A program made the position numbers and the translations under genes. A DNA stretch of 20,436 nt, from positions 1 to 20,436 of the IMG/VR virus record IMGVR_UViG_3300009136_000046. One strand, given 5' to 3'. This document shows positions 1,714 through 19,218 of this stretch, one piece after another. The stretch comes from a virus. The notes under the pieces are model-generated. The model did not search any database. It was not told the origin of the DNA and saw only the letters and a program-made list of their open reading frames with translations. Each line of letters starts with the position of its first letter. Within the stretch, counting starts at the first letter, position 1.

Positions 1714-2067
1714 TTACCACCTCGCCTTTTTAGTACGTGTATCTATATGCGTAAAATCATCATAAGCACCTAACCCGTATTGGTCAGGGTACTTCCAGTT
1801 TAAGTATTGGGCCACCTCATCCGGGGCTATACCACTAACTACAATGTCAGCAGCCCTCCCTCTAATGTGATAGGACTTATCAGAGCCACCAACCTTACGG
1901 TTGTAAGTAGGGCACCTATTACCAGAGGTGACAGTGATGGAAGCCTGATAGGCCTCCCTCAACTCTTGTAACACCTTTACCAATTCCGCATCAACTGTGT
2001 CATAATCACAGTCTCCGCAGTTACACTTAAACTCTTTCCTGCTGAAGTTCTTACTCAGCTTTGTCAT
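1714..2067 (-). CDS. M15-family peptidase endolysin (L,D-/D,D-peptidase type)
   Basis: This 117-aa protein matches the Peptidase_M15_3 build used by many phage endolysins that cut peptidoglycan peptide stems. The zinc-binding layout is visible: SYHIRGRAAD supplies H67 and D74, and FTHID supplies H107 with D109 beside it. SGNRCPTYNRKVGG (48-61) is the usual substrate-groove segment. The N-terminus has C15, C17 and C20 in KCNCGDC, plus C52, a cysteine set common in this subfamily. There is no signal peptide, so export needs the neighbouring holin candidate. The start overlaps the end of the 556-aa virion gene by 17 nt. It could also serve in the virion during entry, since the large ejection protein shows no obvious muralytic motif. 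Family call is firm; exact bond cut is not known. Confidence 0.93.
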   Translation of the reverse strand: MTKLSKNFSRKEFKCNCGDCDYDTVDAELVKVLQELREAYQASITVTSGNRCPTYNRKVGGSDKSYHIRGRAADIVVSGIAPDEVAQYLNWKYPDQYGLGAYDDFTHIDTRTKKARW

Positions 2068-3721
2068 CTTGCTCTACTCCGAAGATAGCTATAAATTTTT
2101 CATCAAATGTTTTCTTATAGTTAGTATGTCCCTCTAAGTGCGCACCCATACGTACAAGCCTATTAAGCATAGCACCCGCCTTGGCGTTCAGTGCCCTCAG
2201 ATCAGACGTAGCAGCATTACCTAGCCTAACCCCTTGCTTGGGCTTAAACACCACACCACCGCCTTGGAAGACAGGCTCAAACAGGTCTGTAGATTTAGCA
2301 TCAGTGCCTGAGCTTGTAACACCAGAGATGTTAACTTGCTCATACTCTTTCTTAATGGCAGGCAGTACACGGTTAGTATACAAGTCCTTCATCACACTAT
2401 CAGCGTCAGCCAATACCGCAGCAGGTACACCACCCTGTGTAGTTACTAGTGTTCCCACCTCAGGGCTAGCTAAGAAAGCACTCACCTCGTTGAACTCTTT
2501 AGGGTTCTTAACACTACTAGCGTAATCAGAAACACCGATCAACGTAGACTCAAGCTGTGTATTCATAGCTTGTACTAAGTCCTGTGGATTGTCTGCTTGG
2601 TTAGAGTTCTTAACATTATCCTTAATGAACTTAAACCTACCACGTAGCGCCTCAGTTTGACTGGCATTCTTAGCTGTAACACTTGCTGGGGTAAACTCTT
2701 CACCCTCACCTAAACCTGCTTGAGTGTTGTTAGTAATACTCTCTAGGATTTTAGATGTGTGCTCATTAAGTGTAGGCAGCATAACAGTGTTAGGGCCTAG
2801 GATTTTAGTTAAAGCAGACAGCCTAGCTGTGGTATCATCCATCATGTAGCTGTATTCAAAGCCTGTACGAATGTGATCTACCTTACGCTTAAGTGTATCT
2901 AACTTAATCTTCCCTGTGATAGCGTCCTCATAAGTTTTCTTAAGGTCACCTAGTGGGGAAGAAATACTACGTAGTACATCACTACCAGCCCTAGCACCCA
3001 CTTGGTTTACAGCAGCAGCCGTTGGGCCAAACTGAGTTTCAAGAGCTTCTAGTGCTTGTGCCTCTGTTATAGTACCCTCTTGGAATTGATCTAGCGTAGA
3101 GCCAAACTCCTTACCAAGCTTGTAATATTGAGACTGCCCTAGGTTGATTACAGCAGTCTTAGCTGTAGCCACCTTGGTAGCTTCACCAACTGTAAGAGAT
3201 TGTTGAGAGAAGCTTAAGTCAGACTCAGCTTTCTGGCGTAGTTGCCATGCCTCTAGTCCCTTAGCTTTCTCCTCATCACTATCCCCCGCATTAATAAAGC
3301 CATTCTGTGCAGCCTTATTCTCTAGGTCTATCCTTAGCTGTTCTTCCTCTGTACCTTCCGAAACAACCTTGCCTAAACCAACAGTGCCTTGAAGCTTAGT
3401 CATGGTCTTAGACATAACGTCAAAGGAACCACCATCAGCTAAATACTTCTTAGCGTTATTCCTCCAACGCCTAGCACCCTCAGATTTAGTCATTGATCCT
3501 GTAGCTACAGCATCTGCAATATTCAATTGCTGTGAGGCAAAGCCTGAAGGGTCTTCACTCTCAGGTGAGAATACAGCTTCCACCCCTTGTGCAGCTACTC
3601 CTAGGGCCTTACCAATATTACTAATAGTAGAGGCCCCAGAGGTGTCTTGGACACCCCCAGTGCTAGGTGTAGATGATTGAGTATCGAAAGCTACATTGCT
3701 TGTGTCAAATACTCCTGCCAT
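2051..3721 (-). CDS. Virion protein, probable internal core/ejection component (556 aa)
   Basis: The start shares TAATG with the stop of the 1562-aa gene. The protein is mostly hydrophilic and Ala/Gln/Thr-rich with long predicted helices. A low-complexity N-terminus (residues 1-60, Ser/Thr/Gly) is followed by helical stretches such as QLRIDLENKAAQNGF and GLEAWQLRQKAESDLSF. No signal peptide, catalytic motif or membrane span stands out. Placement after gp14-like and giant ejection genes, as T7 gp14-gp15-gp16 form one block, makes an internal virion protein the best guess. In T7 the largest protein is last; here the largest comes first, so direct equivalence to gp15 is unsure. Mass spectrometry of virions would settle its status. 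Confidence 0.82.
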   Translation of the reverse strand: MAGVFDTSNVAFDTQSSTPSTGGVQDTSGASTISNIGKALGVAAQGVEAVFSPESEDPSGFASQQLNIADAVATGSMTKSEGARRWRNNAKKYLADGGSFDVMSKTMTKLQGTVGLGKVVSEGTEEEQLRIDLENKAAQNGFINAGDSDEEKAKGLEAWQLRQKAESDLSFSQQSLTVGEATKVATAKTAVINLGQSQYYKLGKEFGSTLDQFQEGTITEAQALEALETQFGPTAAAVNQVGARAGSDVLRSISSPLGDLKKTYEDAITGKIKLDTLKRKVDHIRTGFEYSYMMDDTTARLSALTKILGPNTVMLPTLNEHTSKILESITNNTQAGLGEGEEFTPASVTAKNASQTEALRGRFKFIKDNVKNSNQADNPQDLVQAMNTQLESTLIGVSDYASSVKNPKEFNEVSAFLASPEVGTLVTTQGGVPAAVLADADSVMKDLYTNRVLPAIKKEYEQVNISGVTSSGTDAKSTDLFEPVFQGGGVVFKPKQGVRLGNAATSDLRALNAKAGAMLNRLVRMGAHLEGHTNYKKTFDEKFIAIFGVEQDDKAE

Positions 3722-6700
3722 TATTTATACTCCAATAAAAATTCATATGTTGAATTAAGTTGTTCTTTAGTGTAGTTCATAGACTCAGGTAAGTTATCAA
3801 TCAACATCTTAAACTCTGCATTGTCAGTGTGACCTGACACATTCATTACAGTTTTGTATAAGCGTAAATCTTTACTTTCCACATCCTTCTTAATCATTCG
3901 ATCTAAGTGTTTACGTGCAACTTCTTCCGTAGGGCCTTTCCAAACCCTCCAAGCCTCATTATACATACGTATAACATGATCTGACTCAGATGGTGTTAGT
4001 CCGTCACGGAACAGTTGCTTCTTATAGTCACCGTACCATTGAGCCACATCATCCTTAAGTGCTTTAGATTCCCTGTAGGTCTTATCAGCTACCCACCTAG
4101 ACATAGTCTCAGTGGCTGTAGGAAAGCCTAGGGAAGCCATTAGGGCCTCACTCTCACTCACGTTAAGGTCTAAGCCATTGGCTGTCTTACCAGCCTCCAT
4201 AGCGTAGGACGCCTTCATGAAGTTTGAGTAACCAGAAGATAACTTAAGGAAGTCATTAGCAACCATTGTAAAGGTTGTTGGTGTCTCTGTGTAGTCATCT
4301 GTAAGGTTGAAGAACCTACCAGCAGTCTTAGCTAAGTTAGTTACACGAGGGTTATACCCAAAGAATAACTGACCTGATGGAGTTGAGGCTACCATCTTAC
4401 CAATGTCTGTAGTGAACAGGCCATGGATGAACTCAGCAGTGCCGTACATATCAACAGGGGCTAAGCCACTGAAGTCTACTGTAGCAGTACCATCAAAGGT
4501 TTGATTTAGTAGCGCATTAAAGAACACACCTTCTAAACCATGCACAATAGCATTACGTGCTAACTCATCTTCTGGAAGTTCTAGTCCCATGTCAGATACA
4601 ATCTCATACATTGCAGCAGGAGGTAGTGTATACATAACTGAGTTGAACAGAGCTAGCTTAGCCCTCTCAGCTTTAGACAAGTTACGGTTGAACAGCATTT
4701 GTGTTACAGCTTTATGTGGAACCTGCATGAACTGGAACAAGGCAGCAAAGCTATCTTGATTATATTTCATATCCCCAGCAGCATTCATGTTGTAGGTGTA
4801 GTTCCTAGCTAAGCCAGTAACCCTATCAGCCACTTCCGCATCAGCCATATCTAAACCTTCATCTACAGCCTTGTAGCGTTGTGCTAGCCAAGCTGTCATC
4901 ATGTTCACGTTCTCACCAGCATCAAAGCCAATCTTACGTAAGCCAGATAAAGTCATATCAGTAACTTTACCACTACCATGAGTAACCTTGTTTAACACAG
5001 GTACATCCTTAGTAGCGTCCCTTACAAGTCCAGTCTTAGTCGATAGTTCATCAGCCAAGTCACCTAAGGCACCCCTCACTAGGTTCTGCTTATCAATGGA
5101 AGCAACCAAGCCACTACGCTTAAACTGCTTGAACATTGTCTTAGCTTCACTAGCTGTCATATCTAATGACTTAAGTAACACCTTGCTAGGTTGTAGACCC
5201 ATCTGTAGATTGGTTAACAGCACCACCTCTAATGGAGCACGTCCACTAGCTACATACTTAGGGAAGTTAGCTGCAAGCTGTACGGCCTGATGGCTCTGTA
5301 CAATGAACTGACGTGCTGGGTTAGAGGCTAGGTACATATTAAAGGCAGCGTTCTTACCTGCTGCTGTAGGGCCTCTACGCTCTGATAAATCACGTAGCCC
5401 TTTCTCTGCACCTTCACTATACTTACCTAGGAAGTTAGCCATACCATTGAGGATAGATTTGTAACTATCATCAATCATATTAGCGTAACCACCTTCAAGG
5501 TAGTCAATGTATTCCCACGTAGCCCTAGCGTCTGCTAGACGTTTACTGTCCTGAGTGTTCTTACCTTGGTAAGCTACATTCTCAATGGAGGAAGGGAACA
5601 CCCTCATACCCATATCATTAGTTGGCAGGAACTCCGCAAACTGATTCATGAAGCGTTGCTTAGACGTCTCTAACACTCCACGCATACTCACCCTATTAGC
5701 TGTAGACCTAGCTGAATGAATCATACTATCAACTGGGTTAAGGATAGGTGTCTGTGAAGGGTCTAGTCCACCACTCTCATGGTTAGAGCCTAGGCGTTCC
5801 CCACGAGCACGTTGTGTACTACGTCCAGAGTTCATAGCTACGTCCCAGCGATCATCCATACTCTGCCTAGTACCTTTCATATCTAGTCGTGTGAAGTATT
5901 CGCCCTCAGGGTCGTTAGCCTGAATACGCTTAAGTAGTAGTTCCTTGTCCTTAATTGTACCAGCCGTAGCAACAGCCCTCGTCATCTCCTTACCCCCGAC
6001 CAACTCCTTCTTAATGATGAAGTGAGGGTCTGTGTAGTTTACAGTGTAGTAACCTTCCCTATAGTGTAACGCCTGACTGTTGTCAGTAAGTCCACGTAAG
6101 TAACCACCCTCCTGTGTGTTCTCAACTAGCATCTGCCTAGCTTGTCGTCCACTAACATTCATTGGGTCTTTCAGGATTGCCACACTACTGCCCTTTGAGT
6201 AGATAGCTTCTAACTCGTCGGGGGTAAGGGTTTTAATCGTACCGGAAGTTACGTCATACACTGACAAATCTTCCACATCTTGTTTACGTAAAGGCTTAAC
6301 AAACAGTTGTGTGTCAGCCCCTTTGTTAACATACTCTTTGAAGCCTTTATTCTGTAAAGACCTTACGGCGTCAACATTCTCTAACGCGTATGTAGTGTCC
6401 CAGTAGTTAGACCACTCATTCAATACTTCTCTCTCACTTGCACTAATACCTTGAGCATTAAGCTCAGTATCAGTTAAGCGCTTGCCTTTATGGTTCTGCT
6501 CTTTGATAATACTATCTAGTACAGACTGACGTTCTTTAGGCAGCTTTAAGAAGTTATTACCAAATCCACTACCAAGTTCTAGAAGCTTCTTCTCCAACTC
6601 AGCAGCCTTATCCACAGCTACGTTAGCAGCCAGCGTTAAGTGTCCATCTAGCATGGACTGTGGGTCTAACGCATAACGTTGTACACCAGAGGCAAAGCCA

Positions 6701-8409
6701 GCCAACTTACCTGTACCATCCATAGCACCAATACGGTTGAATAAGTTATTAGTAACTGTTAACTCATCCCACTTACCCATATCCATTGGGTTAAACTTAT
6801 ATTGGTAGTCAAAGCCTACTAGGAAGTCTGGCCTACCAGCTTGGTCTGCTACTGTCTCAATGGCCTTAACCTCTGCTACAGTGGAGGGTACATACTCATC
6901 CCCATCCCTACGTAACACAGTTAGTTGATCTTTAGATACGCCATAGTCTCGTAGTGCCCACTCAGCTAGGTCTAGTGAATCATCTACACTACCCCAACCA
7001 CCTTCAGTAGGGCCATAGATTGCCCTCACCTTAACACCATCTGCCACAGGATCAACTGAGAACATCTCTTTACGTGCAGACATGCCACTAACTTTCTTCA
7101 AGTCATTAACAGCATCAGCTCTTAATTGCGTCTTCTCATTCTTAGTATACTGAATAGCGCCATCATTACCAAAGGCTTCATCTACAATGTTTAAGTCTGG
7201 ATTACCAACCTTGTTGTTAACACTGCCATCAGTCTTGCCAATCTCTGGCATCATATCTCCAGAGATTGCATCAGCTCTACTAGTTCCGTACATAGCCTCA
7301 GCAGCTTCACCAGTTTCATCCAATGAAATCATCTCATGAGAGGTACGGTACTTCTCTGTGTTAGTCTCCTTGAACACTTGGCTGGTGGATGAAGGGGCAA
7401 CCTCTGATCGTGCAGCATCCCTTGTAGCGTTGGATAGGTCGTCAGCTTGAACCCTAGACAGCCTACGTAAACTCTTAACACCTGAAGCAATAGGGCCACC
7501 TAATACAGTCATGTCTAGTACAGATACAATATTATCTAACCATACATCTGAGTCAGTGTAGTAGCCATCCTCTAAGAATGTACGCAAGAAGTTAACCTTC
7601 GTGAAGTCATTCTGATCTTTCATTACAAGAGAAGAGTTCGTACTAACAACATCGGCAATCTTCTGGGCAAACTCTAGTTGTTGATCCACTGGAGCTGAGC
7701 GTAGCTTATCAATGATGTCTTGCTTAGCACTACCTAGAAGGGCCAACCCCTCCATTGTGAACTCATCATCTAGTGAGGTTTGAATCTTAGATGCCATAGT
7801 ACCTTCTACAAAAGGTAGTACAGCTTGTAAGAAATCTGCTGTAGCTGTAACACCATCTGATGTAGAGCCAGCCACTGCACGGTTAAGGATGTCCTGCTTA
7901 GCCTTCTTAAGGGCCTGTACTTCCCCCAGAGAGTCGATCATGTTAATCCTACCCACTTCCCTCTCTACAGTCTCATTACGTCCCTCAGGAGCTTCTACGG
8001 CCTCTGTAGCTAGGATGGTATTAGGATCGTACAGAGAACTCTCAGGATTCATAACAACCTCTGAGGCTGCTAGCTTTTGTTCATCTGAATACTGAGGATC
8101 AGCTAAGAACTTAACTAGCTCATTACGAGCATCGGCGAAGGCTTCTTTCCTTACGCTATCAACAATGTTCTTAGCTGCATCTGACTCAAGCTCTACATCA
8201 AGTTGTGAACTAACAACCCTGTAAGATTCAACAACTCCTTCTACATCTTTCTGTAGAAGGGCTGCCTGCGAGGCTGCATTCATATTAGACTTACGGTTGT
8301 TAATATGTACAGAGTCCTTTACTTCAAAGTCATCCATACTATATGCGTCTTGCTCCAGCTCATCTAGTGTGAACTCAGGAGCTTCTAATACAATCTCTTC
8401 TTCTGCCAT
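3721..8409 (-). CDS. Giant internal virion (ejection) protein, 1562 aa
   Basis: This is the longest gene of the window. It starts with an acidic stretch (MAEEEIVLEAPEFTLDELEQ) and overlaps the gp14-like gene by 25 nt. The body is largely helical and polar. Hydrophobic helices appear near residues ~1020-1055 (FNMYLASNPARQFIVQSHQA) and ~1240-1280 (FNSVMYTLPPAAMYEIVSDM), as might insert into a membrane during ejection. Its size and place match the T7 gp16 class (1318 aa) of proteins that leave the head and build a channel across the cell envelope. Unlike T7 gp16, I see no N-terminal lytic transglycosylase motif, so wall degradation may fall to another protein. Not clearly an RNA polymerase: no such motif was seen. 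Class is well supported by synteny; detailed homology is not shown. Confidence 0.88.
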   Translation of the reverse strand: MAEEEIVLEAPEFTLDELEQDAYSMDDFEVKDSVHINNRKSNMNAASQAALLQKDVEGVVESYRVVSSQLDVELESDAAKNIVDSVRKEAFADARNELVKFLADPQYSDEQKLAASEVVMNPESSLYDPNTILATEAVEAPEGRNETVEREVGRINMIDSLGEVQALKKAKQDILNRAVAGSTSDGVTATADFLQAVLPFVEGTMASKIQTSLDDEFTMEGLALLGSAKQDIIDKLRSAPVDQQLEFAQKIADVVSTNSSLVMKDQNDFTKVNFLRTFLEDGYYTDSDVWLDNIVSVLDMTVLGGPIASGVKSLRRLSRVQADDLSNATRDAARSEVAPSSTSQVFKETNTEKYRTSHEMISLDETGEAAEAMYGTSRADAISGDMMPEIGKTDGSVNNKVGNPDLNIVDEAFGNDGAIQYTKNEKTQLRADAVNDLKKVSGMSARKEMFSVDPVADGVKVRAIYGPTEGGWGSVDDSLDLAEWALRDYGVSKDQLTVLRRDGDEYVPSTVAEVKAIETVADQAGRPDFLVGFDYQYKFNPMDMGKWDELTVTNNLFNRIGAMDGTGKLAGFASGVQRYALDPQSMLDGHLTLAANVAVDKAAELEKKLLELGSGFGNNFLKLPKERQSVLDSIIKEQNHKGKRLTDTELNAQGISASEREVLNEWSNYWDTTYALENVDAVRSLQNKGFKEYVNKGADTQLFVKPLRKQDVEDLSVYDVTSGTIKTLTPDELEAIYSKGSSVAILKDPMNVSGRQARQMLVENTQEGGYLRGLTDNSQALHYREGYYTVNYTDPHFIIKKELVGGKEMTRAVATAGTIKDKELLLKRIQANDPEGEYFTRLDMKGTRQSMDDRWDVAMNSGRSTQRARGERLGSNHESGGLDPSQTPILNPVDSMIHSARSTANRVSMRGVLETSKQRFMNQFAEFLPTNDMGMRVFPSSIENVAYQGKNTQDSKRLADARATWEYIDYLEGGYANMIDDSYKSILNGMANFLGKYSEGAEKGLRDLSERRGPTAAGKNAAFNMYLASNPARQFIVQSHQAVQLAANFPKYVASGRAPLEVVLLTNLQMGLQPSKVLLKSLDMTASEAKTMFKQFKRSGLVASIDKQNLVRGALGDLADELSTKTGLVRDATKDVPVLNKVTHGSGKVTDMTLSGLRKIGFDAGENVNMMTAWLAQRYKAVDEGLDMADAEVADRVTGLARNYTYNMNAAGDMKYNQDSFAALFQFMQVPHKAVTQMLFNRNLSKAERAKLALFNSVMYTLPPAAMYEIVSDMGLELPEDELARNAIVHGLEGVFFNALLNQTFDGTATVDFSGLAPVDMYGTAEFIHGLFTTDIGKMVASTPSGQLFFGYNPRVTNLAKTAGRFFNLTDDYTETPTTFTMVANDFLKLSSGYSNFMKASYAMEAGKTANGLDLNVSESEALMASLGFPTATETMSRWVADKTYRESKALKDDVAQWYGDYKKQLFRDGLTPSESDHVIRMYNEAWRVWKGPTEEVARKHLDRMIKKDVESKDLRLYKTVMNVSGHTDNAEFKMLIDNLPESMNYTKEQLNSTYEFLLEYK

Positions 8410-8852
8410 TTCTTATTACCACTCTGTTGGAAGCCAAAGCTGGCTCCTTGGAAAGCCAAGTTAGCTAAGGCTTGGTGTTCACCAGCATCACTCATAGCGT
8501 CTGCTGCAAACTGATTAAATTGTGAAACATTCAAACTGGTAGCTTGTGAACCCCTGATAGCTGCATTAGCTGTGGCTACACCTGTGGTTAATGCACTCTG
8601 TGCACCAATCTCACCTGAACTACCTTCTGTGCCTTGAGCTTGGGAAGCCTGTAACACTTGTGCCCTACGTATACGTTCCTTACGCACGTTGGCCCTACGC
8701 TTAGCAATATCATCTGCTTGCCCTTGGGCTGTAGATATTGCATTGGCCTTCTTCTGTGCTCTGTTAGCCTTACGTTGATCCTTAGCAGCCTCTTGCGACT
8801 CATAAGCTCCATACGCAAGTAGGCCAACTGCAACCGCTGTCATGACTGCCAT
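8385..8852 (-). CDS. Internal virion protein, T7 gp14-like (155 aa)
   Basis: A hydrophobic N-terminus (MAVMTAVAVGLLAYGAY) is followed by a basic helix with repeated Arg/Lys (KDQRKANRAQKKANA, then KRRANVRKERIRRAQVLQAS), a Gly/Ser turn at ~74-80 (GTEGSSG) and an Ala/Gln-rich C-terminal half ending in KKWQKKRLY. This layout is typical of gp14-like internal core proteins of T7-type phages, which are ejected and reach the outer membrane. It sits between the GNAT gene and the giant ejection gene and starts on a TAATG shared with the former. No signal-peptidase site is evident, so the N-terminal helix is probably used after ejection. Good confidence in class. Confidence 0.85.
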   Translation of the reverse strand: MAVMTAVAVGLLAYGAYESQEAAKDQRKANRAQKKANAISTAQGQADDIAKRRANVRKERIRRAQVLQASQAQGTEGSSGEIGAQSALTTGVATANAAIRGSQATSLNVSQFNQFAADAMSDAGEHQALANLAFQGASFGFQQSGNKKWQKKRLY

Positions 8853-9298
8853 TATCCTAACCTCTTCCTGTAAACAGTTTCAGTCTTAACATAACCCTTA
8901 GGTATCTTGTGTTCGTAGCCTTCCTTGAACATTATAAGGCTTTCATAAACACCACGCTTACTGAACTCTTCTTCTGCTTTATCTAGTAAGGACTTAAACA
9001 CGCCCTCACCCCTGTATTCTTTTTTAACGTACATGCCTATCTCTTGTGCTTTAACGCTGTCAGAGATTAGGTCTGGTACAATACTACTACACACATACCC
9101 AATAAGAACCTCCTCATCAAATGCTGCTACACAAGATATTAGAGAGGCACTTATCATGCCCCCCAACAAATCCATATTAACTTGGTATGGGAGGCCGGAG
9201 AATTCCTTCTCCACCTCCTCATAGTGTAGCTCACCTAATGAGAAACAATCCTTAATGTCTTCTGCGTCTGTCAATACTTCAACATTAAACATTACCAT
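8852..9298 (-). CDS. GNAT-fold N-acetyltransferase-like protein at the T7 gene-13 position (148 aa)
   Basis: The core GNAT strand and acetyl-CoA loop are visible: EIGMYVKKEYRGEGVFKSLL (residues 86-105), in which R96-G97-E98-G99 form the pyrophosphate loop, with F101 where many members have Gly/Ala. A preceding strand is EEVLIGYVCSS (62-72), and a C-terminal GYEHKIPKGYVKTETVYRK fits the final beta strands. The gene overlaps the nozzle gene by 14 nt and abuts the gp14-like gene. T7 gp13, at this same place, is also a short GNAT-like protein needed for core assembly. The product may be an assembly factor or virion protein, with or without enzyme activity. The substrate is unknown. Start is the first ATG of MVM, after a GGGAAT leader; the third codon is an alternative. 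Confidence 0.8.
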   Translation of the reverse strand: MVMFNVEVLTDAEDIKDCFSLGELHYEEVEKEFSGLPYQVNMDLLGGMISASLISCVAAFDEEVLIGYVCSSIVPDLISDSVKAQEIGMYVKKEYRGEGVFKSLLDKAEEEFSKRGVYESLIMFKEGYEHKIPKGYVKTETVYRKRLG

Positions 9299-11699
9299 TA
9301 ATTCCCAATACCATGGACATACCTATTAGTTGCATATCCTTCTTAGGTTCAGTTCTCATCCTAACTGATAGTGCCCTACCCTTACCCCTAATCTTATTCT
9401 TAGAGATAACAACAGAGTTACCATCATCATAGCCATCACCAGTACCCTCAGGCATGTACACCCTGCGCTCCCTGTAAGCTTGGAATTCCCTAGTCCACCT
9501 ATTGGAGAACTCTAGGTTAGTCCAGCCCCATTGAACTTGAGTCAAACACGAAGACTCATTCAGAGGGATAAGGTCACCATCAACCTCTTCAAAACCAGTC
9601 TCAGTCTTATTGAACAACATAGTTAAGTAGGGCATTGACTTGTAGCGTTGAGTGTCACCACCTGTTAGGTAGCCTGTGATAAGCTCTGATGCTGCATCCA
9701 CTGGTGTTGGCACCACCCACTCAAAAATAGTGGACGGAACAGGGAAGGTCTCCCAGTCTGTAAAGGTTGGGTCTGACAATAAACTAAACCCATATGTTGC
9801 AGTGTAGTCCTCATTAGGGTTGTCCTCCAAGGCCAACTGCCCAATGGTGTATATGAAGTCAGCAGTCTGATCTACTATAGCTGCGTCCTTAATAATCACA
9901 TTGTCGCCTGATACAGTTACATTGTCTGCACCAACAATCACACTATTTGATAACTCAAACTGAGCGCTAGTTGGTAGGGCTAGTACACCCAATACAGTGA
10001 CATCCCCACCTGTAATACCACCTTGGACTAAGTGCTTGTAGAAAGCTCCCACCCTAGTATTGATAGACAATATCTCTGTACCAGCTTGGGTAGGTATTGT
10101 CCACTGGACTAAACCTTTTACATTAGATGCAGCGCCTACTGACAAGGATAGGGAGTTGAAACCCAACCCTTCAAAATGCTTGTCCAACACTCCAGCACTA
10201 ACTAAGTTATGTTGTAGCTCACCGTATTGGTTACGACTAATAGAGTTTACTCCCTCTTCACTCAGGTACATAACACTGTCACCAATGTTAACAATTGAGT
10301 TAGAGAAGTTACTTATCCTATCAGTCACCTTAGTAACCTTGTACGAGGTTGCTGTAAAGCCTGTATTGTCTGTACCACTGATAGCCCACACACCTTTAGA
10401 TGTGAACACTAACAAGGATTGACCAAAGGCTTTAAGGCCAGTCACCTCATTAATACCTTCAATGTTTACAAAGCCACCGTCTGTATCAACTACACCAGCG
10501 CTATCTACACTGTTAGGGTCGTCTTCTTGATAACACTTGAAGAGGGACGCGTCATCAACATTCAGTTGGCTGAACAGTATCATACTCTCCAAGTTAGGAG
10601 AGCCGCTCCAAGGGTTAACCTCTTGACCATTAAATCCAGCAAACCACAACCTGCCTGCAAAGAACTCAGTGTGCTTAGCATCCTCTTCTGGCCCTGCGTC
10701 ATCCATAACATTATCTGAGGGGTATAGTCCATTCCCTATCCAAATGTTAGTCACTGGGTTATTATCATAAGTCCTCTCTAAAGACTCCACCCTAGTACTT
10801 CTACGATTTAACAACTCAATTATGTAAGACCCTTTTGGCCTTAACAAACTGAAGGGTGTAGAGTTCAGTAGGGTAGTGTAGTGAAACTTATCTGCTGATG
10901 GCTCAAATGTATCATCAGTCTTAGGGTATGTGTAGTCATTTAAACTATCCCCCGGTGCTGGCAGACTTGTAGCTATGTTAGGCCACAGTGGGTCGTACTT
11001 AGCTGCTAGAGTTGCTGGGATACCAGCCTTAGCCCAACCAGTGTTCCTAAGATTGTATATGTAACTAGGGGCATCAGGAAATGCTGTCAGGTTGAATATA
11101 GGGCGCACATAGGAGTTTGAGTCTTGTGTCAGGTCTAGCCCATTATATATGGCGCTTAATCCCCACAAGTCCCTCACTTTTAAGGGGTAGGTCTCCTCAG
11201 TGATTAATGTCCTATTCACCTCATCATATGACAGGGTGGCAAACTCCCCTTGTACGTCATTGGGTACTACTAACTTCTTACCAACCTGTATAGGGTTAGC
11301 CCTACCACCTAATGTAAAGTTAAGAGCTACTCGGATTAGCCCAGTGCTTGTAATAAGGAAGAAGGCTGCTGTCCTCGATGGGTCAGTAATCCTGCTACTA
11401 TTACCCCTCACTAGGACTAGTAGGTTAGACTCACCAGAGGCCCCTGCACCCTCCCAAATGGATGTATGTAAAACCTTAGCACCAAAGCTTAAGTATTCCT
11501 CTAAGGTGTTCTGTGGAGCAGATGCATCCCCACCATCCACCTTAGCCATACCTAGCCTACGCCTAACACTACCATCTTGTTCTATACTGAAGTTTGTTAT
11601 GTCAATTGCACTATCTGGTTGATAGTTTAAAGGGCCAGCATCAGTGTTCCAACCCTTTGCAAAAGAACTAATCTCTATTGGACTACTTGCTCTCGCCAT
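9285..11699 (-). CDS. Tail tubular protein B / tail nozzle (T7 gp12-like), 804 aa
   Basis: Length is close to T7 gp12 (794 aa), and the start is typical of this class: SPIEISSFAKGWNTDAGPLN followed by DITNFSIEQDGSVRRRLG, the segment in which each subunit meets the tail tube. The remainder is beta-rich with loops, including FAGRLWFAG and FTSKGVWAISGTD (seen in nozzle beta-propeller blades) and an IGDSVMYLSEEGV segment. The C-terminal 100 residues hold strands such as LTQVQWGWTNLEFSNRWTR and end LSVRMRTEPKKDMQLIGM. It assembles as a hexamer below the tail-tube protein to close the channel. It overlaps the 69-aa gene by 17 nt and the GNAT gene by 14 nt. Confident. Confidence 0.9.
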   Translation of the reverse strand: MARASSPIEISSFAKGWNTDAGPLNYQPDSAIDITNFSIEQDGSVRRRLGMAKVDGGDASAPQNTLEEYLSFGAKVLHTSIWEGAGASGESNLLVLVRGNSSRITDPSRTAAFFLITSTGLIRVALNFTLGGRANPIQVGKKLVVPNDVQGEFATLSYDEVNRTLITEETYPLKVRDLWGLSAIYNGLDLTQDSNSYVRPIFNLTAFPDAPSYIYNLRNTGWAKAGIPATLAAKYDPLWPNIATSLPAPGDSLNDYTYPKTDDTFEPSADKFHYTTLLNSTPFSLLRPKGSYIIELLNRRSTRVESLERTYDNNPVTNIWIGNGLYPSDNVMDDAGPEEDAKHTEFFAGRLWFAGFNGQEVNPWSGSPNLESMILFSQLNVDDASLFKCYQEDDPNSVDSAGVVDTDGGFVNIEGINEVTGLKAFGQSLLVFTSKGVWAISGTDNTGFTATSYKVTKVTDRISNFSNSIVNIGDSVMYLSEEGVNSISRNQYGELQHNLVSAGVLDKHFEGLGFNSLSLSVGAASNVKGLVQWTIPTQAGTEILSINTRVGAFYKHLVQGGITGGDVTVLGVLALPTSAQFELSNSVIVGADNVTVSGDNVIIKDAAIVDQTADFIYTIGQLALEDNPNEDYTATYGFSLLSDPTFTDWETFPVPSTIFEWVVPTPVDAASELITGYLTGGDTQRYKSMPYLTMLFNKTETGFEEVDGDLIPLNESSCLTQVQWGWTNLEFSNRWTREFQAYRERRVYMPEGTGDGYDDGNSVVISKNKIRGKGRALSVRMRTEPKKDMQLIGMSMVLGINGNV

Positions 11700-11892: not shown

Positions 11893-12681
11893 TTAATTTC
11901 CACTCCGGAAGGTTGGGTCACGGTGATAGGTTCTTCCACGTCTACCGTAATCTGGGTATTTAATTCCACCTTTAACTCTCCATGCTTTCTGAGAGAGGAA
12001 TCGGTGTTGTCGTTGTGCTTCTTGTTCAGACTTAATATCTTGTACCTGACGTAGCTTCATTGAAGCCCTACTCTTAGCTTCCTCCACTAAGGCCATGAAT
12101 GCCTCTGAGGGAAGGTCAGGGATGAAACTGTCACTCATACTCCACTGAGGCATAACAAAGGCTTGTGCCTGTACGTTAGAGCCTTGTAGCGTAGATTCCA
12201 CTGCTGAATCATAGCTATCAAATACAATAGTGTCATCATCAAAGGAAGTGTAGTAGGTTGGGCCTTTATCATTATAGATAAATAACTCAATACCCGATGT
12301 ATCAATAATAGTATCTACGTTAGCATTGTCACTACGCCTATTATTCAATACACGTAAGAAGTCATCAGGCTCTAACCATGTCATACGCACATAGTTCTTA
12401 TTATCCATGTCAAGACGCTTCTTGTCATAGTTAATAAAGGAGAGTTGTTTAACCTCCTCAGCCAGCTTCATGTGTGTAGGCAGAGCTGTAGTGGTAGACG
12501 CTATTAACTGTACTGCCCTGTTCAGGTGAGGCCAGTTACGATTACTCATCATAGCAAAATAGGTAGACTTAATAATCTGCGCTATCTGTAATGACTCCAC
12601 TGTATCATCAATACTATTAAACTCATCTGAGTCTAAGTCATTGGCAATGTCCTGTGCAATATCTAGTAAACTAAGCTTCAT
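11893..12681 (-). CDS. Tail tubular protein A (T7 gp11-like), 262 aa
   Basis: The N-terminus is typical for the class: LSLLDIAQDIANDLDSDEFN, then VESLQIAQIIKSTYFAMMSN and NWPHLNRAVQLIA, a helical domain that docks on the portal. Next comes a beta domain with LPTHMKLAEEVKQLSFINYD and a central region with RMTWLEPDDFLRVLNNR. The C-terminal helix is basic (KSRASMKLRQVQDIKSEQEA) and ends RRGRTYHRDPTFRSGN. It forms the dodecameric ring between portal and nozzle. At 262 aa it is longer than T7 gp11 (196 aa). The start overlaps the stop of the 209-aa gene as ATGA, a sign of translational coupling. Confidence 0.9.
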   Translation of the reverse strand: MKLSLLDIAQDIANDLDSDEFNSIDDTVESLQIAQIIKSTYFAMMSNRNWPHLNRAVQLIASTTTALPTHMKLAEEVKQLSFINYDKKRLDMDNKNYVRMTWLEPDDFLRVLNNRRSDNANVDTIIDTSGIELFIYNDKGPTYYTSFDDDTIVFDSYDSAVESTLQGSNVQAQAFVMPQWSMSDSFIPDLPSEAFMALVEEAKSRASMKLRQVQDIKSEQEAQRQHRFLSQKAWRVKGGIKYPDYGRRGRTYHRDPTFRSGN

Positions 12682-13307
12682 GCGCCTACAATCCTATCAA
12701 TGGTTATAGATGCGGAAGGTGCGAAGTTCCAACCAGCTACAGTTGGAGTTGCTGAGAATAGTCCTCCAGCATTAGTGCCAGAGCTGTCCCTAACCAACTC
12801 ATACTCAAGCTCAGCTCCTGCTGGCAATACAACCCAAGACTCGATGGAGCTTGAAATTAGTATACCTGCTGTATCAACCGCTGCGCCTACAGAGTTGCCA
12901 ATTTGTGCACCATTGACAATCGCCCTAGCGAACAAGTCTGCTTGAGAAGTACTGCCAGTACGTCCATACTGGAATATTGCCCTGACACGGTATGCACCTG
13001 CTTCATTAAACGTAAGCTTACCAGCCACATCTAACTGAACTGGTGATGACACTGTACCTTGTGCTGCACCAAACTCAACCTTAATTGGTGAGTCTTGTGA
13101 AGCTGGTTGTTGTGAAGAGGCTGTACTAAATCCCGTTAGTTGGGTATCAAATGTGAGATTACCCACATCTACCAACCCATTAGGGTCTTTAAACTCTGTT
13201 GTACCATCTCCATTGGAGGTTAAGACATGATTAATTATAGCAGACCCAGCGCCCTTAGGCTCATGTCTTTGCGCGTCTACTATATCTTTGTGCTCTATAT
13301 CAGCCAT
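12678..13307 (-). CDS. Head-fibre/decoration-like protein with C1q/TNF-type jelly roll (209 aa)
   Basis: The first ~40 residues carry an AQRHEPKGAGSAIINHVL motif followed by TSNGDGTTEF, a capsid-anchoring segment seen in phage head-fibre and appendage proteins ('HEPKGA...V...ADGxGS'). Residues ~55-209 show the strand order of a C1q/TNF-like trimer domain: AGKLTFNEAGAYRVRAIFQY, DLFARAIVNGAQIGNS, ESWVVLPAGAELEYELV and ASITIDRIVGA. It is the first gene after the capsid terminator and so may be made in smaller amounts than capsid. Its ribosome binding site GGAG at 13315-13318 lies in a short palindrome. It may bind host surface or capsid; the receptor is unknown. It could alternatively be a tail-linked fibre. 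Confidence 0.8.
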   Translation of the reverse strand: MADIEHKDIVDAQRHEPKGAGSAIINHVLTSNGDGTTEFKDPNGLVDVGNLTFDTQLTGFSTASSQQPASQDSPIKVEFGAAQGTVSSPVQLDVAGKLTFNEAGAYRVRAIFQYGRTGSTSQADLFARAIVNGAQIGNSVGAAVDTAGILISSSIESWVVLPAGAELEYELVRDSSGTNAGGLFSATPTVAGWNFAPSASITIDRIVGA

Positions 13308-13740: not shown

Positions 13741-14697
13741 TTAAGCAATTGCTGTTGCGTTAGTTGGAAGACAAGCCATTGTATCAAGACGTTGGATACC
13801 TAAACCATAACGGGCACGTACTACGAACTCATCACGAGCACGGTCTTTATTACGTTCACCTTCTGCCTTCGGCATACGACGCCATGCACCCATAACAGGT
13901 TTACATTGGTCATCTAGAATACACATTGCCAAGTTACCAACACCACCTGTAATAGCAGTAGTGCCATCAGTGTAGTCTGCAATATGTAGACGGTTAGAAG
14001 TGATGATGTCGAAGCCATATAAGTTCATAATGAACTGTTGGCCACGAGCCATACCTTCTTCAAGAATACGTTGACCGAAAGGTGTAACGTCGTGAGTGAT
14101 CTGAACTAAGCTGTTAAGAGTAGCTTCAACCACTGGGTCACAAACAAACACACGGCCTGTATCAGGTACGTTAGCCTTGTTGAAAGACAGACGGGCTTGA
14201 ATCAACTGAGACAACTCAAACACATTGTTAGTTGCAGTTGAAGGGATCAAGTGAGGCTGACTATTGATGTTGTTAGGTGAACTAGCACCTGCACCACCAG
14301 CAGCGTAGTATTCCGCACCAGTCTTTAAGAAGTCAGACTCAAAGGTCTCTTGAATAGCACGAGTGGACTCAGCAGAGCGTTCAGCCATTAAGCGATCAAT
14401 GTCAGTACCATCTTCACGAAGGTCGTCAGTAACGTACCAAGCATCACCTTTATATTCAGTGATTTGGAATGTGATCTCACCAGTCTCAATTGGGTTGTAA
14501 ACTAGTGGAGTATCTTCAGCGGCTTCTTGTAAAGTTACAGAACCAACTGTTTTAATGTGTAAGGTATCACCTGAACCGAAGTCTTTAACATCTCGGTAGA
14601 AGGTACCCGGTAGTAAACCATCATGTAGGTTTAAAAGGATGAAGCTAGAATATTGTTCCGCTTCAACGAAAGCGCGTGTATTACTTGTAAGTTGCAT
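13741..14697 (-). CDS. Major capsid protein (318 aa)
   Basis: This is an HK97-fold type coat protein by synteny and sequence pattern. The N-arm (MQLTSNTRAFVEAEQYSSFI) leads into the E-loop/P-domain region with FYRDVKDFGSGDTLHIKTVG and QEAAEDTPLVYNPIETGEIT, then the spine helix with ETFESDFLKTGAEYYAAGG, and an A-domain with VFVCDPVVEATLNSLVQITH and FIMNLYGFDIITSNRLHI. The C-terminal part is RARYGLGIQRLDTMACLPTN. Leader AGGAAATATAA precedes the ATG. It lies between scaffold and accessory protein. All 20 isoleucines use ATT or ATC and none ATA, as expected for a highly expressed gene. Confident. Confidence 0.94.
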   Translation of the reverse strand: MQLTSNTRAFVEAEQYSSFILLNLHDGLLPGTFYRDVKDFGSGDTLHIKTVGSVTLQEAAEDTPLVYNPIETGEITFQITEYKGDAWYVTDDLREDGTDIDRLMAERSAESTRAIQETFESDFLKTGAEYYAAGGAGASSPNNINSQPHLIPSTATNNVFELSQLIQARLSFNKANVPDTGRVFVCDPVVEATLNSLVQITHDVTPFGQRILEEGMARGQQFIMNLYGFDIITSNRLHIADYTDGTTAITGGVGNLAMCILDDQCKPVMGAWRRMPKAEGERNKDRARDEFVVRARYGLGIQRLDTMACLPTNATAIA

Positions 14698-15614: not shown

Positions 15615-15854
15615 TTATTTCACTAAATCCATTATCTCGTGCAGAGCACGTTCATAACCCTTCTGATCGGCTTGTAAGTAAGCCCAATTGGGGTTATCAT
15701 AAGATGTTTTAGCTCTAGACGCAGTAAGAGACGTATCAATTTTATCTTTAAGTAGGAGATCAAGGCGTTGTCGTAGAAGAAGGGAGGCCACAAAGGCCCC
15801 CTTTACATCCTTGGCAGCCTGAGGGTCTAACCCTTTAGTCCAAGAAGTCTTCAT
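15615..15854 (-). CDS. Small portal-linked hypothetical protein (79 aa)
   Basis: The start shares TAATG with the portal stop, so it is probably translated by the same ribosomes. The protein is helical and charged: TSWTKGLDPQAAKDVKGAFV, then ASLLLRQRLDLLLKDKIDTS, and a C-terminal NPNWAYLQADQKGYERALHE-like stretch (with DNPNWAYLQADQKG) that ends IMDLVK. There is no membrane span or signal. Small helical proteins between portal and scaffold are common in podophages and probably act in head assembly. I cannot assign a family. Confidence 0.8.
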   Translation of the reverse strand: MKTSWTKGLDPQAAKDVKGAFVASLLLRQRLDLLLKDKIDTSLTASRAKTSYDNPNWAYLQADQKGYERALHEIMDLVK

Positions 15855-17614
15855 TATAACATACCCATACCAGTAGTATCTACTTGTGACTCAACCTCTA
15901 AGTCCTCTTGCGCCTGTTCAGCTAGAGACTGCGTCTCCTTCTGCTCATTGATAGCTACATTAGGTTTAAAGATTTCATAGCCCTTAAGGTTAGTTACATC
16001 ATCTACAAACTTAGTCAATTGAATAGAGCTTGTGTGCGGTGCAATCATCTGACCAATAGGGGAGTTGAAGATACCAATAACATTCTGTAAGTCTTGAGTC
16101 TGTTGTCCAAAGTGTCTAGCCCCAATAGGTCTTAACTTACCTTTAGCGGTAATATCCTCTTTGGTAATAGACATGAACACTTCAACACCTAGGTCATTAT
16201 CCATCACCCTAAGAATCTCTGAGCCATCCATATTACGTCTAGCAACTTCTAGCATGTCATTAAGTACAGGCTCTAACAGCTCAATCTCAAAGGATGTGAT
16301 CTTCTCTTGGAAGATACGTCCAGCAGCATTCTGCAACTGACCCACCTCAAAGGCTGTCTTCTCACCCGGTGTACGGATGCCCATAGCCTCCCTAGGTGCG
16401 CCTGCCATAAGCTCCATCTTATCCTCAATAAGCTGGACATCTTGTGTAGCTGCGATAATACCTTGCATACTCTTAGAGACTTCTTGGATGTCACCAGCTT
16501 CATCAATCTGAATAGCTTCACCCGGCCCCCAAGCAAACTCATCTACATCACCCAATATCTTCAGCGGTGGATGAACTACTAAGTCCATAGCATCAGCCTT
16601 AAGGTTCTCTAGGTGGTCAATACGGTATTGCATACCCACTAGGTTATCTAACGGCCCCATGGCCCACAGGTTGTCAGGACGGAACCTCCAGCCTACATGA
16701 CGGATAGGAGCTTCACCAAACCAGCTAGGGATGGACTCATTACGCACCATAAGGGATCGGTCAGCAACTGTTACAATGCGGTTAGTACTTAACTCACCTG
16801 TAGCTTGGTTGTGGAAGTCCCCATAGAACTCTAGGATTTCTACGTAGTCAGACTGGTAGTATTCATGTAAGTTACCAAAGCCGTCTACAGAGTACCCTGC
16901 TGCCTTATCGAAGTCTTCTACAGAGTAACCCCCTAGGCCATTCCTAAAGTTCTCCCTACGGTCAACCACGTCCTTCCAAAAGGCTTGATCTGGGTCTACT
17001 TGAGCTAGACGCTTAAGTTCACCAATGGTCTTAACAGAACGTACAATCTTAAAGCTATCCTCAAAGGTACGAGCTAATGGATTGAATACCACATCCATCG
17101 GACTAATACGTTTAGGTACTGGCCCTGTGAAGTCAGATACTAGGGAGCCATCCTCAAGCTCTCTGACGTGGCTTTCATACGACGTGGTACAGAAGGCATT
17201 GCCATAGTCGATATAGTCATACAGGAGCTTAGAGAACTCTGTACGTACACGGCCTTCCCTCACCTTGTTAGACATATAAGACTGGATAGCATCTCGCTTA
17301 GCAATAACACTATCATCCTTAGAATAGCCCATCCAACGTAGCCAATCATCATTAGGGAACAATGAGCTTAGGTAGTTAGAATGTAAGTTGTCTCGGATTT
17401 GACATAGCTTAGGTGTTGTAGTTGTATTCTTCCACGGGAGCGTCTGGTTAGTCGTTGTGGTAGTGTCCGTAGCAAATACATAGTTACGTAGCTCTTTCCA
17501 CTCCTCAATCTTACCATGGCGCTGTTGATTAAACTTATCCCAAAGGTATACAACCCACTTACTCTCATCATCCTGCTGTAATATGCTGGTCAGCTCAGCT
17601 ACTATTTCTGACAT
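15854..17614 (-). CDS. Portal protein (head-tail connector), 586 aa
   Basis: The portal forms the dodecameric vertex ring for DNA entry and tail docking. Early segments are typical: KWVVYLWDKFNQQRHGKIEE, EWKELRNYVFATD and QIRDNLHSNYLSSLFPNDDW. The middle has FTGPVPKRISPMDVVFNPLA and the wing/stem region VGWRFRPDNLWAMGPLDNLV; MELMAGAPREAMGIRTPGEK and TAFEVGQLQNAAGRIFQEKI match the helical stem and crown part of podophage connectors. Two Thr runs at residues 51-55 and 64-67 flank QTLPWKN. The C-terminus is Gln/Glu-rich (QKETQSLAEQAQEDLEVE). It starts directly on the TerL stop. Confident. Confidence 0.93.
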   Translation of the reverse strand: MSEIVAELTSILQQDDESKWVVYLWDKFNQQRHGKIEEWKELRNYVFATDTTTTTNQTLPWKNTTTTPKLCQIRDNLHSNYLSSLFPNDDWLRWMGYSKDDSVIAKRDAIQSYMSNKVREGRVRTEFSKLLYDYIDYGNAFCTTSYESHVRELEDGSLVSDFTGPVPKRISPMDVVFNPLARTFEDSFKIVRSVKTIGELKRLAQVDPDQAFWKDVVDRRENFRNGLGGYSVEDFDKAAGYSVDGFGNLHEYYQSDYVEILEFYGDFHNQATGELSTNRIVTVADRSLMVRNESIPSWFGEAPIRHVGWRFRPDNLWAMGPLDNLVGMQYRIDHLENLKADAMDLVVHPPLKILGDVDEFAWGPGEAIQIDEAGDIQEVSKSMQGIIAATQDVQLIEDKMELMAGAPREAMGIRTPGEKTAFEVGQLQNAAGRIFQEKITSFEIELLEPVLNDMLEVARRNMDGSEILRVMDNDLGVEVFMSITKEDITAKGKLRPIGARHFGQQTQDLQNVIGIFNSPIGQMIAPHTSSIQLTKFVDDVTNLKGYEIFKPNVAINEQKETQSLAEQAQEDLEVESQVDTTGMGML

Positions 17615-19218
17615 TAAAATCTCCCACCAAACCTACTCTTAGGTTGTTCTGTTGTAAAAAAGTCTTTCATAGCTGTGCCCATACTCTTCGATGGGGCAAC
17701 AGCAATCTCAACTGCTGAAGCTAACGCATCCTTACAGTCATCGTGTGCTGGACGGGCTTTGATAAGCTCCTCCTCTAACACAGCAGTCCAGCCACCTTCT
17801 TGGTGCCAAACCTCTAAGTTATCATAACGATGTTCTAGTGCGGCTGCAATACGCTCTTCCTTTGTACCTTCTGCCCTAGATGGTCTGAACTCATCCACAG
17901 AGAGCCTCATACCGTCCTTACGGACATAATCCTTAATAGCATTCACAATCACCTTCTGAGCTACGGAAACCTCTGCACGGAGCTTAGAGAATACCCACTT
18001 AGCATGAAGGGCCTTGATGTGCTTGAAGTAGTCTAAGGTCTTATCAGACTTAAACCTGTCTATGTCAACAACGTAAATGTTACCATCACAGTCTACACCG
18101 ATAACCACAATAGCCGTGTAATCGGCTGTCTTAGAGAGGCTGAATGCAAAGTCAACTGCTGCATAGATGTTTAGTTTACGCCCATTATAGAACCACTTAC
18201 TACCTTCCTTCTTAAGCTTACGTACATCAAAGTATTGGAACTTGTCCCTACTGATGCGGTCACTGGAGGGGTCATTAGGGTCGTTGTAGTACTGAGAGAA
18301 GAACTGCACTCTGTCTGAATACTCTGCACGGATACGTGCTAGTATCTGCAAGTCAAACCCGTATGCCTTACCATCACCACGTACCACCCTAGGCCAGATA
18401 AAGATGTTGTCCGTCTCTACCTTATACTCCTTACTAGCCCACACTGGCGCTTGATCTACCTTAACACCATCATCATTGTACACATCGTACACCTGATTCT
18501 TCCAAGTGTCGTAGATGTCTGATGGGTGATAGCGTGTACCACAAGCCATTGTAAAGCCACCAGCATTACGGATGGAGGTGAACTGAGAAGCCTTCTTACT
18601 TACAGCTTCCCTGCCATCTTCTGTGTATGCATTCTCTGGAACCACCAAGTCATCCGCTAGGACGATGTCAGCGTGCCAACCTGTGGTGTTAGTTGTTAAG
18701 CCTGCTGTTGATATGGTAGCATCTCGAATACCCTCTTCAGAGCGCCTAGGGTGGTCTATACTCACCTTAGTAGATGACCACTTCTCCCGCTTACCTTCTT
18801 GAGGCTGTACATACTCAGGGAAGTAACGACGGTACACCGTACTGCCTAATACATTCTTGATAGCGTACAACTGTGTGATTGCTAATTCTGCTGTTGCAGA
18901 TACATACAGCATTGTCACTTCTGGGTGACGTGTAATAATCCACGCACACCATGTAGCTACCATGTGGCTCTTTAAGTGAGCACGAGGTAGCATGATTAAT
19001 TTATTAGAGGTAAGCCCTTCACCTTGCCCATATAAGGAGTAGTCCTGCATCCACCGGAATATCTCCTCATGTACTTTACCATACATGTAGCCGGGGTTGA
19101 CAAGGCGAGCGAAGAGGAACAAATCCTCTTTCGCTGCTTCCCTGATTTCCTTGGCTTTCTCTGGCATTACTTTGAGCTTATGGTTAGCTTCCTCTAGCCA
19201 ATCCAACTCTTCAGCCAT
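17614..19218 (-). CDS. terL: Terminase large subunit (ATPase and nuclease), 534 aa
   Basis: This motor packs DNA into the procapsid and cuts concatemers. The ATPase domain shows a variant Walker A, LPRAHLKSHMV (77-87, K83 and S84), and Walker B ADIVLADDLV (183-192, D189/D190), with coupling motif GFTMACGTRYHPS (221-233). The RNase H-like nuclease domain has IYAAVDFAFSLSKTADYTAI (351-370, D356), the strand GNIYVVDIDRFK (379-390) and AHDDCKDALASAVEIA (491-506, D494 and D497). The gene starts right at the end of TerS and ends on the portal start. Order TerS-TerL-portal differs from T7, where terminase genes lie after the ejection genes. Confidence 0.95.
   Translation of the reverse strand: MAEELDWLEEANHKLKVMPEKAKEIREAAKEDLFLFARLVNPGYMYGKVHEEIFRWMQDYSLYGQGEGLTSNKLIMLPRAHLKSHMVATWCAWIITRHPEVTMLYVSATAELAITQLYAIKNVLGSTVYRRYFPEYVQPQEGKREKWSSTKVSIDHPRRSEEGIRDATISTAGLTTNTTGWHADIVLADDLVVPENAYTEDGREAVSKKASQFTSIRNAGGFTMACGTRYHPSDIYDTWKNQVYDVYNDDGVKVDQAPVWASKEYKVETDNIFIWPRVVRGDGKAYGFDLQILARIRAEYSDRVQFFSQYYNDPNDPSSDRISRDKFQYFDVRKLKKEGSKWFYNGRKLNIYAAVDFAFSLSKTADYTAIVVIGVDCDGNIYVVDIDRFKSDKTLDYFKHIKALHAKWVFSKLRAEVSVAQKVIVNAIKDYVRKDGMRLSVDEFRPSRAEGTKEERIAAALEHRYDNLEVWHQEGGWTAVLEEELIKARPAHDDCKDALASAVEIAVAPSKSMGTAMKDFFTTEQPKSRFGGRF

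Follow-up and report, generated by a model that had tools for sequence, protein, structure and literature searches.

In phage T7, gene 13 (internal virion protein A), a poorly understood assembly gene, lies between the nozzle gene and gene 14, and the locus described here raises the question of what a protein with the features of an acetyltransferase might be doing in the same place. The window, by which we mean the whole stretch of viral DNA that was analysed (20,436 nucleotides), carries on its minus strand a gene for a 148-amino-acid protein (8852..9298). An earlier note had pointed to this reading frame, without its strand, as lying at the T7 gene-13 position; the frame is real, and it does stand between a nozzle/tail-appendage gene and a gene in the place of gene 14. 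In transcription order, the window encodes terminase (17614-19218), portal (15854-17614) and scaffold, all three named from position and relatives, then capsid (13741-14697), the tail tubular A protein or adaptor in the gp11-like place (11893..12681, minus strand; phrog_7592, 1.1e-98), a 69-aa ORF, the nozzle or tail appendage in the gp12-like place (9285..11699, minus strand; phrog_8094, E 5.5e-143), the GNAT-fold protein, a small protein of 155 aa in the gp14 (IVP-B) place (8385..8852, minus strand; phrog_8168, 1.1e-17), a large protein of 1562 aa in the place of internal virion protein D (3721..8409, minus strand; phrog_18427, E 0), and a further internal-module protein of 556 aa (2051..3721, minus strand; phrog_18587, 3e-63). 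The gene order of Vibrio phage ICP2 is the same, and its annotated "internal virion protein" is placed like the 1562-aa protein. The GNAT gene has 14 bases in common with the nozzle gene, and its stop codon shares one base with the start of the gp14-place gene (TAATG). From this operon, late expression of the GNAT would be expected, and the relatives of the record suggest that it is of Zobellviridae type. At the far end of the module, the gene for a probable endolysin (1714-2067; Peptidase_M15_3, 4e-27) overlaps the end of the gene for the 556-aa internal protein.

The description of the product as a GNAT-fold protein was borne out by both profile and predicted structure. The protein matched Pfam Acetyltransf_1 (PF00583) with an E of 6.9e-10 and 39.7 bits, above the curated cut-off of 20.7, and its residues 13-126 were matched by the profile of phrog_1249, a family of phage acetyltransferases (3.6e-12). 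The AlphaFold2 model, made from an alignment of 8 sequences (pLDDT 87.1, pTM 0.82), has the GNAT fold, with AAC(3)-I (1bo4) as the best Foldseek match (1.9e-9) and meta-AAC0020 (5f47) as the best VIA-align match (Z 16.2, rmsd 2.4, 134 aligned); among solved structures, the nearest folds are those of aminoglycoside acetyltransferases, including AAC(3)-Ia and meta-AAC0020. Matches in a viral structure library include proteins of VpV262 and Roseobacter phage CRP-4. The fourth-helix region of the model is irregular, with three helical residues and a pLDDT of about 75-81. By profile and by predicted fold, the window protein is a GNAT.

T7 gp13 had been taken in the earlier note to be a short GNAT. 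When gp13 was modelled (pLDDT 93.0, pTM 0.83; 14 sequences), its 138 residues formed seven strands with helices in the usual GNAT order, so that, as predicted, it is not a truncated GNAT. The best Foldseek match for this model was at 2.3e-5, and it aligned with the GNAT domain of S. lividans PAT with Z 12.2 and rmsd 2.5 over 127 aligned residues. One solved structure, 3f0a, was matched nearly full length by both models, with Z 15.3 for the window protein and 11.1 for gp13. The earlier note would have been refuted by the lack of a structural match to gp13; such a match was found, in the sense that the two models, each compared separately with GNAT chains, share one fold. Sequence comparison gave a different picture: a Pfam search with the window protein, read down to an E of 1, did not list the gp13 family PF11090, hhalign of the window GNAT family against the gp13 family returned a Prob of 0.5 percent, local hhalign of the full GNATs against gp13 gave P 0.11, and the gp13 profile found no match among PDB sequences at E up to 10. 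On the two hhalign values, homology to gp13 by sequence was rejected, and as no link between the families is seen by profile, the window protein and gp13 are plausibly, but not demonstrably, of common descent.

Among nine other IMG/VR loci with a relative, the same layout of ORFs around the GNAT, judged by ORF sizes and not by homology, was seen in all eight that were examined (seven distinct cases, since L045 and L046 are near-identical), indicating that placement of the GNAT gene is not a matter of chance. A GNAT is found in the same place in 13 named Zobellviridae. In Vibrio phage 1.034.O (L041), where a gene annotated as head closure lies upstream of the adaptor gene, the GNAT is still beside the gp14-place and large internal genes. 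The nozzle region of the Vibrio 1.208.B-type group (L038, L040, L042, L049) is made up of two ORFs, each of about 320-410 aa, in place of a single ORF of about 800 aa.

We then scored the content of this slot in 24 Zobellviridae-type records (23 so classified and one IMG/VR contig), of which nine had been chosen by GNAT similarity, two by DNA similarity and 13 by their nozzle, the last picked for diversity, with annotations in view, among 60 listed of 116 records. The slot held a GNAT in 14 records, each with a single phrog_1249 match, at the slot gene. In eight it held a protein of 95-109 aa, and none of these eight records had a GNAT match elsewhere or in the slot at an E of up to 0.01. One record has a 230-aa protein of seemingly low complexity there, and one has nothing. 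When only the 15 records not chosen by GNAT similarity are counted, the numbers are five GNATs, eight short forms, one empty slot and one other protein. The empty slot belongs to phage T5S1-18163, which also had no GNAT match, and the job done by the slot protein is accordingly not universal. Replacement of one form by another is best seen in the record closest to the window by megablast, T2S2-k141_370465. Its proteins are identical to those of the window at 77% (terminase), 65% (portal), 73% (capsid), 53% (tubular A), 30% (nozzle), 42% (gp14-place) and 21% (large protein) of positions, and between these still-homologous flanks its slot holds a 95-aa protein without similarity to the window GNAT. 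Elsewhere in the same pair of records, the protein encoded at 12678-13307 of the window matches its T2S2 counterpart over 36 residues only, at 64% identity, and has a separate PHROG match over residues 1-41; it is perhaps a conserved N-terminal anchor with a variable body.

The short slot proteins, one of which (Klyazma) is annotated "IVP-A-like", were compared with the GNATs and with gp13. Those of PA11 and T2S2 had no Pfam match at E up to 10, an HMM of the short forms matched only its eight founding members among 55 records, and we make no claim that these proteins of about 100 aa are GNATs. In local hhalign, the eight short proteins aligned with gp13 over 76 columns in a sensible register with P 0.027, short against full slot GNATs gave P 0.092, and other pairs gave P 0.31-0.69; the gp14-place protein against T7 gp14 gave P 0.041 on 3 columns, which is no profile link. 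A search of IMG/VR with the short form returned three partial matches, and one with the large internal protein returned none. P22 gp14 (gene 14, DUF2824, L067:8911-9366) was also considered as a slot GNAT, and nothing is claimed for it, its sole PDB match being a glyoxalase at 0.008. Gene 14 of P22 lies directly before gene 7 (the IVP-B place), which is the same slot, and its sequence is GNAT-like by eye.

The reading that we prefer, and to which we give about an even chance of being right, is that the window gene encodes a structural-operon protein built on the GNAT fold, with the task that gp13 has in T7. In favour of such a role are the almost constant place of the gene, the GNAT fold predicted for both the window protein and gp13, the distribution of gp13 and of GNATs across phage groups, the change of slot protein between homologous flanks, and the lack of a canonical loop in the slot GNATs. 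By analogy, considering where its gene lies and the function proposed for gp13, the window protein would act in assembly, and its place there is probably that of T7 gene 13; a slot GNAT may help the gp14-place and large internal proteins to fold or to assemble into the ejection core. That the GNAT of this phage group "could correspond to gp13 from T7" is already in print, in a 2019 paper on cobaviruses whose relevant passage bases the proposal for SIO1 and the cobaviruses on the GNAT domain and its position and suggests a role in morphogenesis (PMC6775973). The slot survey and the complementary distribution described below are what the present work adds. Against the assembly reading, conserved residues of the slot GNATs would fit an enzyme too.

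The earlier note had described the acetyl-CoA loop of the window protein, R96-G97-E98-G99, as intact-looking. The canonical GNAT pyrophosphate loop is Q/RxxGxG/A, a motif that is common but not universal. The residues named are present, and in the model they form the loop between the strand at 82-91 and the helix at 100-114, which is the right place (beta4-alpha3; R96 to F101, 8996..9013, minus strand). However, the word "intact" did not hold, because the complete stretch reads RGEGVF, in which the arginine and the fourth-position glycine fit the motif and the sixth residue, F101, does not. Among 21 different slot GNAT sequences (two of them close), the arginine is invariant, the fourth-position glycine occurs in five and G or A at the sixth position in seven, and the full motif is found in none. 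As a control, the full loop was read in 11 of 12 distinct solved GNATs whose alignment was readable over the loop (9mgs with 1bo4, 3jvn, 1s3z, 5kga with its variants 5kf1 and 5kgh, 3lod, 7ypu, 2bei, 5c82, 1vkc, 1tiq, 4j3g and 1yr0); both sets are made up of relatives, and so no probability is attached to 0/21 versus 11/12. The exception, 3lod, reads RGQQLG, and failure of the motif therefore does not exclude membership of the GNAT fold. Elsewhere, the complete loop is found in 0/9 SP6-like GNATs and in 3/7 Rac proteins. Since the motif is incomplete across the slot GNATs, the loop of the window protein is, on its residues, to be read as a variant and not as plainly intact. T7 gp13 itself has RLSGKA at residues 70-75, in the right loop and in agreement with the motif, but this holds for only 1 of 14 gp13 proteins, T7's own, and we treat the fit as chance. 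It does count against describing T7 gp13 as having lost the loop or as a plainly dead form, and we do not adopt that description.

The slot GNATs keep several residues but not the glycine signature. E28, in the HYxEVE stretch of the first helix (9215..9217, minus strand), G67 and R96 are present in 21/21 sequences, and E86 on beta4 (9041..9043, minus strand), which we take to be the candidate general base by analogy with Gcn5, is present in 16/21; HYxEVE and FKxG(H/Y) are typical of the window protein's own subgroup. Conservation of E28, G67, R96 and E86 would fit an active acetyltransferase, one that uses its variant loop to bind acetyl-CoA and whose substrate is either a host protein or a protein of the virion, perhaps one of the internal proteins encoded next to it. 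Such an enzyme would also agree with a Pfam score over the GNAT cut-off, with aminoglycoside acetyltransferases as the closest solved folds, and with the purifying selection seen in one pair, GP100 and a close IMG/VR relative (pN 0.024, pS 0.61). Nor is the motif a strict test, as 3lod and the Rac protein of LUZ19 illustrate; the latter reads RNSGVV, lacking G or A at position 6, and Rac is reported, in the part of the source available, to need its acetyl-CoA pocket (PMC7552054), so that a variant loop can accompany reported activity. The lack of a full loop in every slot GNAT, and the eight related phages that make do with a protein of about 100 aa, argue in the other direction, and we consider catalysis as the function of the window protein possible but somewhat unlikely.

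To ask whether the GNAT has diverged together with its neighbours, pairwise distances were compared by Spearman correlation, with the large protein represented by its first 430 residues and, in three Vibrio-type genomes, the nozzle by only the second of its two ORFs. Correlations of the GNAT were 0.275 with the nozzle (13 genomes), 0.128 with the gp14-place protein (14) and 0.231 with the large protein (14), and were reached by 28, 196 and 77 of 1000 shuffles, respectively. Among themselves, these three proteins gave 0.40-0.60, with at most 1 in 1000 shuffles as high. Co-divergence this weak is not as expected of a tightly co-evolving partner; saturation may add to it (the median GNAT distance is 0.86), and replacement of the slot gene fits it as well. 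In a tree of 37 GNAT proteins without an outgroup, a group supported at 100/99 unites the SP6 GNATs with the slot GNATs of P12053L, CRP-4, KZY1-1027853 and T4S1-502596; the other 17 slot GNATs, including that of the window, and also Rac lie outside this group. Several branches were flagged as long, those of T4S1-502596 and CRP-4 included.

The distribution of gp13 and of GNATs was then scored across 52 records, covering 13 of 29 gp13 loci, 8 of 9 SP6-like loci and 7 of 8 Rac loci besides the Zobellviridae-type records. PF11090 gp13 was found in 13/13 T7-like, 0/8 SP6-like, 0/7 phiKMV-like and 0/24 Zobellviridae-type records, and phrog_1249 GNATs in 0/13, 8/8, 7/7 (weak, 1e-6 to 1.7e-5) and 14/24, respectively; as the T7-likes were picked by gp13 and the SP6- and phiKMV-likes by their GNAT, only the absences are informative. 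The Zobellviridae were picked by GNAT, nozzle or DNA similarity. No record had both genes. PF00583 agrees with phrog_1249 for the T7-likes, apart from a single match, which in G003 falls within a frame of 1654 aa, and it misses T2S1 (W08). In the phiKMV-like records (G022-G028, loci L160-L166), a second PF00583 match besides Rac was present in 7/7, over the cut-off in 3/7; it lies at 6.9-7.7 kb in six and at 36 kb in G023, a record that starts elsewhere. In SP6 and LUZ19, there is no annotated gene, and no room for one, between the nozzle and the next internal protein, and the GNAT is instead followed by one small gene and then the connector/portal gene, annotated as head-tail adaptor. By ORF sizes, a GNAT precedes a connector/portal ORF of about 515 aa in 9/9 SP6-like loci, and Rac precedes one of about 510 aa in 7/7 phiKMV-like loci; a published table for Vp670 likewise places a GNAT before the connector/portal gene. 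New here are the observations that the slot holds a full GNAT, a protein of about 100 aa, another protein or nothing, and that SP6- and phiKMV-like phages, which lack gp13, carry a GNAT near the portal gene; no statement of the slot survey or of the complementary distribution was found in the literature searched, with most subscription papers outside it.

Weak co-divergence, variable slot contents, related GNATs at the portal gene of SP6-like phages, the host target reported for Rac in the accessible part of PMC7552054, and the host-metabolism roles suggested for the CRP-4 and CRP-5 GNATs in a passage of PMC6918029 would all fit an exchangeable cargo gene that belongs to the late operon, acts on the host in a way comparable to that of phiKMV Rac and takes no part in assembly, but a gene of that kind would be expected elsewhere and beside gp13, so that the nearly fixed place next to the core genes and the lack of any record with both genes make cargo a quite improbable explanation.

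Assembly by a gp13-like protein, the reading we prefer, can be extended. One functional family of GNAT-fold virion-assembly proteins might take in gp13 of the T7-likes, the slot GNAT and, in SP6- and phiKMV-likes, a copy that has moved close to the portal gene; catalysis would have been lost or reshaped several times within it, and the host activity of Rac would be a side-branch. Many T7-type and Zobellviridae podoviruses would then retain a single protein of this fold in association with their structural genes; we regard the family and this scope, taken together, as unlikely. If the fold of gp13 is that of an acetyltransferase, as modelled, and relatives have GNATs or proteins of about 100 aa in its place, then the choice between scaffold and enzyme for this gene becomes testable, and one may ask whether a single gene family has given both Rac and gp13. 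Caution is also advised in calling a slot GNAT a host-metabolism gene, as was suggested for CRP-4 and CRP-5, because the CRP-4 GNAT is in the slot; the passages that note GNATs in CRP-4 and CRP-5 (PMC6918029) and in ZP6 draw no link to gp13.

Among the closest known systems is the slot GNAT of the cobavirus/SIO1 type (pc40); the phages that carry it belong to the same family, and in them too the gene stands next to those for internal virion proteins. Its P12053L member differs in its loop (RKTSAG versus RGEGVF) and lies across the 100/99 branch from the window protein, on whose side are 16 further slot GNATs. The GP100 slot GNAT and gp8 of Vibrio phage ICP2 share with the window protein both the phrog_1249 family and the neighbouring genes, at 34% (GP100) and 27% (ICP2) identity, and their loops read RGGRVF and RGGTVF, respectively. 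T7 gp13 (PF11090) has the gene place and the predicted GNAT fold in common with the window protein, whereas its family shows no sequence similarity to it that we could find and no conserved acetyl-CoA motif. The SP6 gp28 acetyltransferase belongs to phrog_1249, as does the window protein, and its group is the one that joins four slot GNATs, but its gene lies two genes before the connector/portal gene, its loop reads RGSLAG, and the slot is empty in SP6. Finally, Rac of phiKMV and LUZ19 resembles the window protein in being a GNAT that a phage encodes at a border of its structural module, and the LUZ19 loop shares the missing G or A; Rac differs in its weak match to phrog_1249, its very long branch, its published effect on the host, where it is reported to trigger cleavage of RNA polymerase alpha, and its place just before the connector/portal gene, where the window gene instead follows that of the nozzle.
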